DNA of 64,000 nucleotides from Lachnospiraceae bacterium (GCA_015057665.1 SVDY01000001.1:186001-250000), one strand, 5' to 3'. Positions 2,854-7,875 are shown, numbered from the stretch's first letter. Translations and numbers: made by a program. Notes: generated by a model from the sequence alone, not told the origin.

Positions 2854-3273
2854 CTATTTCATATAGATTTCTCTCAGTTTTTCTGTTCCTGCTTCAATAG
2901 ATGCTTCATGTAACGGATAATATTTATGATACAACTCTTTGGAAGTAATGAGCATTATCATATCTGCGGATTGATAACCGTATTTCCATTGCATATAAGT
3001 ATAAATATCCGCCATCCATTCCAAAATAAATTCATCATATTGTTCACTGATTTCATCCCAGTTATGAATCTCGATTCCCATAGCTCCAAGAATCTGCTTA
3101 GGAGTCTTATTAAGATAGAGTGGATTTCCAGCATCCATATATTTACGGTACTCGCTCTGCATATACTGATCAATCACCTCAAATGCATTATCCGAATTAC
3201 GCCCAATTAACTTAAATAAATATCTGCCTTTCTGGAACATACTGTTCAAATAACATTCATCATATGCTGGCAT
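2854..3273 (-). CDS. Probable antitoxin or partner of a DUF3990 protein
   Basis: A 139-residue soluble, acidic protein with many aromatic residues, and no signal peptide or known motif. Its first 14 bases overlap the end of the DUF3990 gene at 3260-3958, which points to translational coupling. I recall similar proteins next to DUF3990 genes in related bacteria, which fits a toxin-antitoxin or effector-partner pair. That pairing is inference from gene order; no antitoxin fold is visible in the sequence. Confidence 0.55.
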   Translation of the reverse strand: MPAYDECYLNSMFQKGRYLFKLIGRNSDNAFEVIDQYMQSEYRKYMDAGNPLYLNKTPKQILGAMGIEIHNWDEISEQYDEFILEWMADIYTYMQWKYGYQSADMIMLITSKELYHKYYPLHEASIEAGTEKLREIYMK

Positions 3274-3958
3274 TTTCGTACCCTCCGGATTCTTCGCTAT
3301 ATATCAGTTTATTCTGAATTGCATATCTGGCAGTGATACCAGGCACTTCAAAGCCTTCGACCAGAATAGCTTTCATTCTTTCGGATAAGAACTTATTGAC
3401 TTCTCGTCTTGCATAAGAATCCTCTTTTAGATGTTCTTCCTGCAGTTCTACTTCATAGGCTTTCAACCATTCAATATTTTGAAAAGCTTTTTCCGATTTT
3501 AGAAATACCTGATTGCCTAAAGAACCTTTATAGAACAATCTCTGTACTTCATAAATGTTAATCTGGTTCAGTAAAAATGCTTCTACGACCTGTGTATAAC
3601 TATCATCTGCACGATATCCTTTGATAATGTCATATTTATCGGCATCAATTCTGTACATTTCAACCAGCCTGTTGCCAATGATACTTGCTGCTTCTTGATT
3701 TGTTCCTCGATTAGCAACTACTTCTGCGATCCACGCAAGTACGCCATGCTCTGAAAGGTCAAGAACACGTAATTCATCTATCATAAGATTATATACATTT
3801 ACAATTGAATGTTCCGGACTCCCGTTTAATGTCGCCCAACTTCTTGCTCTATCCTCATATTCTGTTGTATAAAAGCCATTCCCATAATCGTTATCAGCCT
3901 TGCCGCCTAAATAGCACGGTTCTTTCACGATATGGTCAGAACCATGATATACGATCAT
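3260..3958 (-). CDS. DUF3990 (ADP-ribosyltransferase-like) protein, candidate toxin
   Basis: A 232-residue protein starting MIVYHGSDHIV. The start at 3958 is chosen because AGGAAGGAG lies about 9 bases upstream; an in-frame ATG at 4012 would put 18 unlikely residues before the conserved YHGS. The N-terminal pattern YHGS, then YGNGFYTTEYEDRARSWA, is the hallmark of DUF3990 and related ADP-ribosyltransferase folds, where these segments form the NAD pocket. The later Q and E region (QEAAS, VVEAFLL) may hold the catalytic Glu, but I cannot fix it. With its overlapping downstream partner it forms a candidate toxin-antitoxin pair. The target is unknown. Confidence 0.65.
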   Translation of the reverse strand: MIVYHGSDHIVKEPCYLGGKADNDYGNGFYTTEYEDRARSWATLNGSPEHSIVNVYNLMIDELRVLDLSEHGVLAWIAEVVANRGTNQEAASIIGNRLVEMYRIDADKYDIIKGYRADDSYTQVVEAFLLNQINIYEVQRLFYKGSLGNQVFLKSEKAFQNIEWLKAYEVELQEEHLKEDSYARREVNKFLSERMKAILVEGFEVPGITARYAIQNKLIYSEESGGYENASI

Positions 3959-4017
3959 ATAATCGCTCCTTCCTACGTGTTCAATATAATTATTTGTTTT
4001 ATTATAACACATTCACC

Positions 4018-4937: not shown

Positions 4938-5570
4938 CTATAATCTCACAGAATAATTCCCCACAAGAGAAATACATCGTGCCATCTCTTCCAGCCCAAA
5001 AGCTCTCGGTTGAAGCGGATGCCCTGGTGCCACACGTTCCAAAAGCTCATTTCCTTTAAACCACATACGAAATTCACAACAAAAATTCACTTTAATTCCA
5101 GACTGGCCGCATAATATCTCAATATCTCTTAAGAATCTTCTGCCTAATGGGGTCATCTGCATAGAGTACGACTTGTTGAACAGTCCTCTTTCGAACTTTA
5201 TATTATATAGTTCTTTGAATATCAAAGAACTTTGTATGGTTCCTTGACCGGATTTATGATAATACTGTACCTCATCGATGCCTGACCATCTGTTAGAAGG
5301 GCCCACCGTATAATCAGAACTGTTTTTGTTATATTCTCCGTTAAATACCATAACTTTACGAATGCCTCGATCATTCAATCTGATTTCACCATTAATCGTC
5401 CGCAAAGACGGATGATGTCTTACAGTCGTTCTGGCCTGATGTTTAATTCCTTCTACTACATCGTTTACTGCCTCCTGATACATCTTTTTTGCAACTGCAT
5501 CAAAGTTAATAGAAGTATCATTTTTTAAATTTTTTTGAATTCCCCTTAATTCATTGATAAAATCAGACAT
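4938..5570 (-). CDS. Hypothetical protein downstream of the reverse transcriptase
   Basis: A 210-residue soluble protein without a recognised domain. The start ATG at 5570 has an AGGTG about 5 bases upstream; a GTG three codons earlier (5579) is also possible. It begins 16 bases after the reverse transcriptase stop codon, so the two are almost certainly co-transcribed and may act together. It has basic patches (HQARTTVRHHPSLR) and three cysteines near the end (ILCGQ, NFCCEF), which could suit nucleic-acid binding. That is speculation. Confidence 0.6.
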   Translation of the reverse strand: MSDFINELRGIQKNLKNDTSINFDAVAKKMYQEAVNDVVEGIKHQARTTVRHHPSLRTINGEIRLNDRGIRKVMVFNGEYNKNSSDYTVGPSNRWSGIDEVQYYHKSGQGTIQSSLIFKELYNIKFERGLFNKSYSMQMTPLGRRFLRDIEILCGQSGIKVNFCCEFRMWFKGNELLERVAPGHPLQPRAFGLEEMARCISLVGNYSVRL

Positions 5571-5586
5571 CTCTATCACCTGAATT

Positions 5587-6798
5587 TTAATCCTTTCCTT
5601 TCAAATGTTTATAATAGGCATTCACCAACGTCACGTATCCTAATTCCTTCATTTTATCATAAGTGAAGTTGTAGGCTGCCTTGGTATGTTTCCCTGTCGC
5701 CAGCACACGAATCTGGTACTGACTGTATTCATCGATTAATCTTAAAGATTCCGTCGTGTTAATCACCGGGAAATACCATCTGGTCCATGTCAATTCATGT
5801 TCTACCGGATTTTCAAACAATTTTTTGTTAAAAACTTTAATAAAGGCTCTTGCTGATTGGACTCTTTCGATTCCTTTTTTTGCTCTCCAACGATTCAGCG
5901 CCCTTGCCTTCCTGCGCATCTTCGCTTTCATCTTATCAAAAGAGATCGGAGAGATATCCACAGTTCCATTCTGATAACTGACACCAAGAAATGTCCACTT
6001 CTCTCCAGGTCCTGTGTACGCCTCCTTTTGCGGATTAATGGAAAGTCCGGCTTCCCTAAGAATCTGGTGAATCTTTCTGACGTGTTCATCCAGTTCCTCT
6101 CTTGTCCGGGCAAAAAGGATAATATCATCGGAATATCTGGCATAGAGTACTCCGGCTTTCTGAAAATAATGATCCATGCAGCTGAGGTATAAGTTCGCCA
6201 AAAAGGTGGATACGGGAGTTCCCGCCATAATGCCTTTTTCTTCTTTTATCTTTTCCCCTGCTTCCATGACCCATGGATTCATAAGAAGCGACTTTAAAAA
6301 CTCGCAGACAGGCTTGTCATCTGCTAATTCCAATCCTACTTTTTCAAGCAGAGCAGGAACCGGAATAGAATTAAAATAATTACTGATGTCTACTTTATAA
6401 GACCACATCTTTCCAATCCCCGGAACAGATGTCAATCTTTTGATAGCATCATGAACACTGATTCCCTGGCGGAAAGAATAAAGATTAGACGCAAATATTT
6501 TGTCGTATTTTTTTTGAAGAAGATAGGTCAAAAGTTTTAATACCCAGTTCTCCTCCTCTTTATAGACATACACAATCCGTTTTTTTTCGGAATGAAGTTT
6601 GCTGATTATTTTTTTATGCGGATGCGAAAATCCGGCTCCGGTGTTTATTTTTTGTACAACAGGAAGATAAGCGCGGTCCGAAATAAAAGCAGCAAGCTGC
6701 TTTTGTTTTGCTTCACTCATATGTCCTCCCGCCAATTTGTAATCCAAAAATTCCTGCCATGTCTCATGACAGGATAGTAATTCTATGATGTCAGTCAT
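5587..6798 (-). CDS. Reverse transcriptase (unclassified, defence- or group-II-like)
   Basis: A 403-residue RNA-directed DNA polymerase. The palm motifs are intact: KVDISNYF (catalytic Asp137), GIMAGTPVSTFLANLYL (residues 189-205, the template-grip motif) and ARYSDDIILFA (YSDD at 222-225), then WTFLGVSY (motif E region) near 268. NLYSFRQGISVHDAI near 105 is the fingers segment. There is no maturase X domain, HNH endonuclease or retron VTG motif, so it is neither a full group II intron protein nor a classical retron enzyme. The start has an AGGAG site about 8 bases upstream. A structured RNA element (6838-6990) lies just before it, and an unknown gene follows after 16 bases. Solitary enzymes with an upstream RNA are typical of the DRT defence group; that membership is inferred. 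Confidence 0.85.
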   Translation of the reverse strand: MTDIIELLSCHETWQEFLDYKLAGGHMSEAKQKQLAAFISDRAYLPVVQKINTGAGFSHPHKKIISKLHSEKKRIVYVYKEEENWVLKLLTYLLQKKYDKIFASNLYSFRQGISVHDAIKRLTSVPGIGKMWSYKVDISNYFNSIPVPALLEKVGLELADDKPVCEFLKSLLMNPWVMEAGEKIKEEKGIMAGTPVSTFLANLYLSCMDHYFQKAGVLYARYSDDIILFARTREELDEHVRKIHQILREAGLSINPQKEAYTGPGEKWTFLGVSYQNGTVDISPISFDKMKAKMRRKARALNRWRAKKGIERVQSARAFIKVFNKKLFENPVEHELTWTRWYFPVINTTESLRLIDEYSQYQIRVLATGKHTKAAYNFTYDKMKELGYVTLVNAYYKHLKGKD

Positions 6799-6837
6799 CT
6801 TCTTACTCCTGTTGTATTCTCTTTTTGGTTAAAACAA

Positions 6838-6990
6838 AAAACAGAGAGGAAACTCCTTAAAACACACGATGGTAATCATCGTGGGTCCACCAGACCGTAC
6901 ACAGACCGGCTGCCTGCAAAACCGTTCCCTCCACCTGAGGTTATGTCTGTGCTGGGCCCCTCACAGGCGCATTGCGTTCCTCTCTGTTTT
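6838..6990 (-). ncRNA. Structured RNA element upstream of the reverse transcriptase
   Basis: The gap between the gene ending at 6994 and the reverse transcriptase holds a compact fold. A perfect 14-bp closing stem (AAAACAGAGAGGAA at 6838-6851 against 6977-6990) encloses a 7-bp hairpin at 6865-6883 (CACGATG, loop GTAAT, CATCGTG) and a second 7-bp pairing of 6900-6906 with 6945-6951. The tract is GC-richer than its neighbours. On the minus strand the closing stem ends in TTTTTTGTTTT. The position and closed shape resemble template or guide RNAs of retrons and DRT systems. No homologous family is recognised, and expression is not shown. Confidence 0.6.
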
Positions 6991-6993
6991 ATA

Positions 6994-7875
6994 TTACCAA
7001 ACATACATGGCATCTGCAATTCTTTCTTTTACATAATCAAGGTCATTGCGATAATCAGAGAAGAAATGAACCCCGCCGATTCCTTCCTCTGCATAGGCCT
7101 TAATTGCTCGCTTGACAGCCCTTGTTCTACTATTATCATGGCTGTCAACCAGATAAACAGCCACTACCGGCTTGTTATTTCTAAAAAGCATATAATCTGC
7201 TTCTACTCTGCCATCTTCTTCCTGCACTTCTTTATACAGACTGTATTCCGGAAACTCCTTAAGCATTACAGCAGCAAAATATTCTTCCACCGTTCCTCGA
7301 TAGTTATAGGCATTGATTTTCGGATTTCGCTCGCCTGTAATCTTAAACGCCCTGAGTGCTTTGAATGAATCTGTGAAAACACTGTCGATTCTGCCATAAG
7401 CACCTGCTTTCACACAGTCTTCATAATCTGAAAAGAATCCGCCGCTATAAACTTCTTCCTCCCATTCCATGTCATTTACAAAGAATTTGTCACCATTTCC
7501 CAGTCCGCCCTGAATAACATTGCCAAAGAAATATTCCTGCGTGCGGAAAAGTTTTTTCTCTGTGCGCATTTCTACCTGCATGAGAAATTGAGGCGGATCG
7601 ACAAGTTTAGGAAGACCCACAGCGGTCACCGGTATACCGGAAACAGAAATCATATCATGTCTTTCCTGTCTGTCAAAAAAGTCTTTTCTGATTTCGTTAT
7701 GTTCTTTGATTTCTTTTTTATCGACTTTTTCGATTGAAATATCCCGTTCTCCTCGTTGTACCATCTCTTTTAAATAATCAAGAGAATAGTTAAGACCACA
7801 GATGGTACACTCAGCACCTCTTCCGCCGGATTTCATCTCTAAAGTTCCACCACAGATTTCACACGACAATTTCAT
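6994..7875 (-). CDS. Zinc-ribbon protein of unknown function
   Basis: A 293-residue protein. Residues 5-26 form a zinc ribbon (CEICG near 5-9, CTICG near 22-26). The middle (VIQGGLGNGDKFFV) is beta-rich. Residues around 225-275 (RVEADYMLFRNNKPVVAVYLVDS) look like a nuclease-fold core of the PD-(D/E)xK type, but the expected Lys is missing, so activity is doubtful. The start follows a GAGGAG site at slightly long spacing. It ends only 3 bases before the RNA element that precedes the reverse transcriptase, so it may share a transcript with it. The family is unknown. Confidence 0.6.
   Translation of the reverse strand: MKLSCEICGGTLEMKSGGRGAECTICGLNYSLDYLKEMVQRGERDISIEKVDKKEIKEHNEIRKDFFDRQERHDMISVSGIPVTAVGLPKLVDPPQFLMQVEMRTEKKLFRTQEYFFGNVIQGGLGNGDKFFVNDMEWEEEVYSGGFFSDYEDCVKAGAYGRIDSVFTDSFKALRAFKITGERNPKINAYNYRGTVEEYFAAVMLKEFPEYSLYKEVQEEDGRVEADYMLFRNNKPVVAVYLVDSHDNSRTRAVKRAIKAYAEEGIGGVHFFSDYRNDLDYVKERIADAMYVW

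Follow-up and report, generated by a model that had tools for sequence, protein, structure and literature searches.

A UG26 reverse transcriptase, an RT-5 RNA, and a restriction-endonuclease-like partner in Lachnospiraceae: a candidate DRT-type module

The 64,000-nucleotide (nt) stretch of Lachnospiraceae bacterium DNA analyzed here (GCA_015057665.1 SVDY01000001.1:186001-250000; "the window") contains, between positions 4938 and 7875, a gene for a reverse transcriptase (RT) of the UG26 group, an RNA of the Rfam family RT-5 just upstream of it, and a gene for a protein that we call the partner. A sequence-only reading had proposed this locus as a candidate defense system. All parts lie on the minus strand, in the order partner, RNA, RT, and are followed by one more open reading frame (ORF):

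6994-7875, minus strand: partner, 293 amino acids (aa); matches RTasCOG2852 (1.4e-8) and a hidden Markov model of the partner domain (1.2e-26)
6838-6990, minus strand: RT-5 RNA, 153 nt, whole RNA with its closing stem P1; Rfam match of 70.1 bits at 6849-6972; match to covariance model R1 at 6823-6994, 107 bits
5587-6798, minus strand: UG26-group RT, 403 aa; PADLOC RT_UG26 6.4e-167; YSDD; C terminus ...LVNAYYKH
4938-5579, minus strand: ORF, 213 aa

The ORF at 5587-6798 carries YSDD at its active site and matches Pfam RVT_1 (1.5e-24), as expected of the YSDD reverse transcriptase that had been called. An enzyme of the UG or defense-associated reverse transcriptase (DRT) type had also been suspected, and the best model was PADLOC RT_UG26 (PDLC03764), with 553 bits and with residues 3 to 399 aligned to positions 2 to 396 of the 398 in the model. 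The next PADLOC models were RT (129 bits), UG4 (110), UG27 (110), UG17 (106), and Drt9 (98.5), leaving UG26 a lead of 424 bits, and NCBIfam Drt2 scored 74 bits against a cutoff of 390. By these scores, the window RT is a full-length UG26 member of the UG/DRT reverse transcriptases. In a phylogenetic tree, UG26 formed a clade separate from group II introns (support, 100/100). The group II RT/maturase model TIGR04416 reached 123 bits, with a cutoff of 300, and an Rfam scan found no intron RNA at the locus.

The AlphaFold2 model of the window RT had a mean predicted local distance difference test (pLDDT) score of 93.9. Its closest folds were group II intron RTs and then DRT9 (template modeling score, 0.64; 20% identity). 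A C-terminal tyrosine pair was conserved, with Y at the two positions in 102 and 101 of 116 homologs, and Y380 was invariant; DRT9 probably uses two tyrosines at its C terminus to prime DNA synthesis (PMC12483538). It is the model scores, the fold, and the layout, rather than a UG-wide tree, that suggest class 2 DRT membership for UG26. Searching this phylum for references from other UG groups yielded none suitable for such a tree: UG27 and UG4 gave nothing, and the UG17 matches looked like multicopy group II introns.

The 118 UG26 loci that we compared comprised, besides the window, 37 stretches of related genomes and 80 named genome contigs; a few of these loci are near-copies of one another. 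The homologs came from searches with the UG26 model or an alignment of UG26 members. The single protein used as a query against the genome contigs found no relative, and the alignment query used after it found 412 relatives. The hosts of the 118 loci were mostly ruminant-gut Clostridia and included Ruminococcus flavefaciens MA2007 (L134).

The Rfam RT-5 match (RF03026) exceeded the gathering score of 45.7 bits and covered the full model (1-104); by this match, the RNA upstream of the RT is RT-5. Folding of 6838-6990 gave -61.6 kcal/mol (z = -3.54), and 0 of 200 dinucleotide shuffles did as well. Model R1, built from 29 of the 118 loci, found the RNA at 110 of them, always on the RT strand and at a median of 25 nt upstream of the RT. 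The eight loci without a match comprise L042, which is cut by a contig end that leaves the 3' end of the RNA visible; L140, with little upstream sequence; L067-L069, whose UG26-like RTs are divergent; and L092, L110, and L132. Among 397 genomes of the same family, UG26 was present in 36 and RT-5 in 31. All 31 belonged to the 36 UG26 genomes, with the RNA adjoining the RT, and RT-5 without a UG26 RT was found in none of the 397.

A partner was found at 90 of the 118 loci. Eighty-nine of them had the order partner-RNA-RT and one, L048, had RNA-partner-RT; because L048 keeps all three, the parts of the unit appear to stay together on rearrangement. Partner matches with E < 1e-29 in 200 genomes all adjoined UG26/RT-5. 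At the level of sequence, this conserved arrangement shows that the RNA, the UG26 RT, and the usual partner form one unit. At L088 and L095, the RNA and the RT are separated by a gene for a 199-aa protein that is not related to the usual partner and lies about 9 bp ahead of the RT.

Both genes flanking the RNA and the RT had been offered as possible new partners. The upstream zinc-ribbon gene fits, as a member of the family seen at those 90 loci; it ends 3 nt before the RNA and encodes an N-terminal Cys4 zinc ribbon, as had been read. The downstream gene exists but does not fit, and its distance from the enzyme, given as 16 bases, is 7 bases with the GTG start at 5579 and more with a later start. 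Considered as a partner, ORF 4938-5579 (minus strand) had no relative in 60 related genomes, and the genes downstream of the RT varied between loci. Since it has no relative there, the ORF is, by sequence comparison, an orphan and a chance neighbor outside the unit.

The RNA is closed by stem P1 and contains a small 5' hairpin (P2), a long central helix (P3a/P3) with hairpin P3b inside it, and a 3' hairpin (P4). An H-type pseudoknot arises where the P3b loop pairs with the strand on the 5' side of P3a. The elements mapped on the RNA are as follows:

6977-6990, minus strand: 5' strand of P1, 14 bp with 6838-6851; duplex-energy test; outside the Rfam model
6962-6968, minus strand: 5' strand of the pseudoknot, GCCUGUG; 99.2% paired, compensatory changes at 7/7 pairs, 90 sequences
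6945-6960, minus strand: 5' strand of P3a and P3, pairing with 6891-6906; 93.1% paired, both-side changes at 12/14 pairs
6925-6944, minus strand: J, an A/U-rich single-stranded stretch from P3 to the pseudoknot hairpin; candidate template
6907-6924, minus strand: P3b hairpin (6924-6921 with 6910-6907), with the pseudoknot strand in its loop; both-side changes at 4/4 pairs
6912-6918, minus strand: 3' strand of the pseudoknot, UGCAGGC, in the P3b loop; covariation
6891-6906, minus strand: 3' strand of P3a and P3; covariation
6865-6883, minus strand: P4 hairpin; both-side changes at 7/7 pairs
6838-6851, minus strand: 3' strand of P1, continuing into a U tract (6841-6836)

The sequence-only reading had described a 153-nt region closed by a perfect 14-bp stem with at least two internal helices. 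The stem is there (6990-6977 with 6851-6838), and the internal helices P3a/P3, P3b, and P4 are conserved and covary at homologous loci. Absence of the fold beside homologous enzymes had been set beforehand as a refutation, and the fold proved to be kept there: over 90 distinct sequences, 90.4% of the cells were paired, 44 of 47 pairs had both-side changes, and no shuffle came near. Six helices covary, including the outer stem P1 and the 7-bp pseudoknot. The pseudoknot was absent from the model behind the 90-sequence alignment and was nevertheless 99.2% paired there. On a sequence-only alignment it was 99.5% paired, and a slide of one column reduced pairing to 25.6-31.5%. Register shifts in the sequence-only alignment left the evidence for P1 ambiguous, and P1 was therefore retested by comparing duplex energies within and across loci. 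At loci outside model building, same-locus duplexes had -21.7 kcal/mol versus -14.2 kcal/mol for cross-locus duplexes, and 0 of 2,000 shuffles did as well. The Rfam alignment lacks P1 and leaves the 5' strand of the pseudoknot unpaired. Thus, P1 and the pseudoknot extend the Rfam description.

The stretch J follows stem P3 on its 3' side and precedes the pseudoknot hairpin. It is 20 nt long in the window, where it contains a small inserted hairpin, and 5-10 nt long at most loci; its sequence is variable, and its A/U content is 68% versus 52% for the whole RNA. The order stem, template, pseudoknot is also that of the DRT2 and telomerase RNAs (PMC12039810), and the template loop of DRT10 is variable in sequence (PMC12632851). 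By this analogy J may be the template for reverse transcription, a proposal whose chances we put a little short of even. At L063 (1853-2119, minus strand), the J loop carries a 119-nt stretch of near-repeated hairpin sequence.

A structured RNA held within a closing stem, next to a lone RT and an accessory gene, resembles the layout of a retron, in which P1 would be the a1/a2 repeat, the RNA would be the msr-msd for branched multicopy single-stranded DNA, and the partner would be the retron effector. Retron models do match the RT, weakly: the St85 RT model scored 57.6 bits, far under its cutoff of 235, and UG26 was ahead by more than 400 bits. The VTG motif was absent from its expected place in all 116 homologs, and NAxxH occurred in 2 of them. 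Nor was a long msd-like hairpin conserved, and J spans just 5-10 nt at most loci. We consider a retron very improbable, and the description of the enzyme as one without intron or retron hallmarks was borne out: models and motifs place it outside the retrons, and the tree places it outside the group II intron clade, so that it also passed the other refutation set beforehand, a placement inside either group.

The RNA might instead be a cis-acting leader of the RT transcript, an attenuator or autoregulator, with the RT using another template or none. Its short distance from the RT start and the continuation of P1 into the U tract would suit such a role, and class 1 UG/Abi RTs make DNA template-free (PMC12483538, PMC13174585). 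However, a gene stands between RNA and RT at L048, L088, and L095, and, unlike most leaders, the RNA never occurred without a UG26 RT in the 397 genomes. Moreover, DRT template RNAs have just this anatomy, a scaffold with a pseudoknot that bears a variable loop, and the Rfam entry classes RT-5 as an sRNA gene. A leader is therefore quite unlikely in our judgment. A promoter scan found no more sites than in shuffles.

The window partner comprises a zinc ribbon (residues ~1-35), a middle region (of which ~75-156 were modeled with low confidence), and a restriction-endonuclease-like domain (~190-291). The C-terminal domain of the partners, ~100 residues long, has a predicted alpha-beta-beta-beta-alpha-beta-alpha core with pLDDT values of 85-96. 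Its PDB matches were weak, and many were restriction-endonuclease-like (McrC, 3ijm, VRR_NUC, and Hjc); the best E value for that fold was ~0.02. The domain is thus predicted to have a restriction-endonuclease-like, PD-(D/E)XK, fold. The PADLOC family RTasCOG2852 (PDLC03793) matched 14 of 23 aligned partners, the best with 3.5e-63.

Of the catalytic D...ExK motif, the glutamate was present in ~70% of partners, the lysine two residues on was not conserved, and neither was the aspartate. An N-x-x-x-Y-V-x-x-R signature in the last helix was nearly invariant. The alignment thus shows a decayed nuclease motif. Seventy-nine of the 90 partners start with a short M[GS][FLI][FLI] segment, with a hydrophobic moment of 0.34 versus 0.22 in shuffles, and this amphipathic N terminus suggests membrane association. 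The partners of the window, L071, L072, L074, and L103 have a zinc ribbon and a middle region instead; in these the middle region contains QGGxGxGDxxxxN and, by eye, looks like an EF-Tu-like second beta-barrel domain. The L136 partner has two tandem restriction-endonuclease-like domains with a proline-rich linker between them. Most likely, the partner is a membrane-associated, noncatalytic sensor or effector.

We next consider what the unit does. If the RT module had been domesticated for a housekeeping role, such as genome maintenance or the stress response, this would account for the neighbors at the sampled loci, for the most part core genes (Spo IIIAA, a DEAD-box helicase, an S1 protein, and transporters), as well as for the lack of relatives on viral contigs. 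Against it stand the patchy distribution of UG26 (within one family, 36 of 397 genomes), the presence of two diverged copies in a single genome, flanks that are unrelated between loci, and the relationship to proven DRT families; together, these features indicate a mobile, selected accessory trait. A housekeeping role thus appears unlikely, if slightly less so than a leader. The second copy, on contig C12 of the window genome (L034/L002), is 49% identical and is accompanied by an RT-5 RNA of its own and a partner of the ordinary MGF type; a sodium:neurotransmitter symporter gene follows it, and at L051, too, a symporter of similar kind lies downstream of the UG26 RT. In the window, 1.6-3.9 kb downstream, adjacent genes at 2854-4012 (minus strand) match the candidate defense pair PDC-M42B (9e-15) and PDC-M42A (4.6e-38). 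The defense reading is favored because of the patchy distribution, the second copy with its own RNA and partner, and these PDC-M42-like genes nearby.

With moderate confidence, we interpret the UG26 module (RT-5 RNA, RT, and usual partner) as a DRT-type antiphage system templated by a noncoding RNA (ncRNA); RNA binding, templating, priming, defense, and the role of the partner are inferred. That the locus is a class 2-like DRT module is well supported, and antiphage activity is probable from family membership and analogy. The RT would bind RT-5 RNA as a dedicated scaffold and template and would copy a short single-stranded stretch, for which J is the best candidate, into DNA, probably repeatedly, in the manner of DRT2, DRT3, DRT9, and DRT10. 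Synthesis would probably be protein-primed through the conserved C-terminal tyrosine pair, like that of class 2 DRT enzymes. The DNA product or the RT-RNA complex would then act with the partner, an accessory or effector in which the zinc ribbon here takes the place of the amphipathic N terminus, to stop phage infection. A more specific version is tentative, and we would sooner doubt it than accept it: UG26 may be a further DRT type in which a short, lineage-specific loop of the pseudoknotted RNA yields short-repeat or low-complexity DNA and a membrane-associated, catalytically dead restriction-endonuclease-fold protein senses the DNA or the ribonucleoprotein and triggers cell shutdown.

Several observations weigh against this interpretation. 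The divergent RTs of L067-L069 had no recognizable RT-5 RNA, and ~20 RNA-bearing loci had no recognized partner. Some of the latter may perhaps reflect divergence or contig ends; the genes considered there as replacements were unrelated and looked, for the most part, like housekeeping genes. Viral contigs yielded no relative of UG26, and a tblastn search of phage and plasmid records gave distant RTs only, many of them annotated as group II intron RTs. An A-B-A' repeat of the DRT10 type in J or in J plus flanks was not significant (221, 104, and 45 of 500 shuffles scored as high); J is for that reason held to be a candidate template, and telomerase-like repeat addition by UG26 is not supported at the sequence level. 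Finally, the sampled downstream neighbors were mostly housekeeping genes and not defense islands.

Three side observations concern the surroundings. The PDC-M42A-like gene of the window encodes DUF3990 with ADP-ribosyltransferase similarity. At L053, the gene after the RT (6202-7131) encodes DUF1848, listed by PADLOC as RTasDUF1848, another RT-associated family. Farther along the window, 18831-57663 holds large repeated clusters of secreted-protein genes in several diverged copies, which by eye resemble pilin or adhesin and signal-peptidase gene sets.

We know of no functional characterization of UG26. To our knowledge, every DRT family that has been studied makes an unexpected DNA of its own, so that an abundant, uncharacterized group whose RNA fold and partner are defined is a direct target for study. 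The locus had been put forward as an undescribed system; this was too strong, as the RT group (PADLOC RT_UG26), the RNA (Rfam RT-5), and the partner domain (PADLOC RTasCOG2852) are each cataloged already. A search confined to open-license papers met UG26 solely among the RTs of cold-seep viruses (PMC10504277), and it brought up nothing on RT-5 or RF03026. With the present analysis, the three separately cataloged items become a single unit that can be tested, the RNA structure gains a closing stem and a pseudoknot that covaries, and a candidate template is named.

Compared with the catalog entries, the window RT fits the UG26 group as a full-length member, the 153-nt structure with P1 and pseudoknot exceeds the 104-nt Rfam model, and the window protein differs from RTasCOG2852 in having a zinc ribbon and an extra middle region in place of the usual M[GS][FLI][FLI] N terminus. 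DRT2 (UG2) likewise has an RT with a neighboring pseudoknotted ncRNA (PMC12039810), but its ~120-nt template builds a toxic repetitive gene, and no such long template is conserved in UG26. DRT9 (UG28), the nearest DRT by fold, pairs an RT bearing the conserved C-terminal tyrosine pair with a structured ncRNA that lies upstream and serves as the template (PMC12483538); it has two components and a universally conserved poly-U template, whereas in UG26 the loop is variable and A/U-rich, and a partner is usually present. DRT10 (UG17) shares the tripartite layout of ncRNA, accessory protein, and RT, and its 137-nt ncRNA combines a central stem with a template loop that varies (PMC12632851). Its accessory protein is SLATT, however, whereas that of UG26 is restriction-endonuclease-like, and A-B-A' repeats are not enriched in UG26. 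Thus, the RT, the RNA, and the partner domain were known separately, and together they make up a new variant within the known DRT kind.

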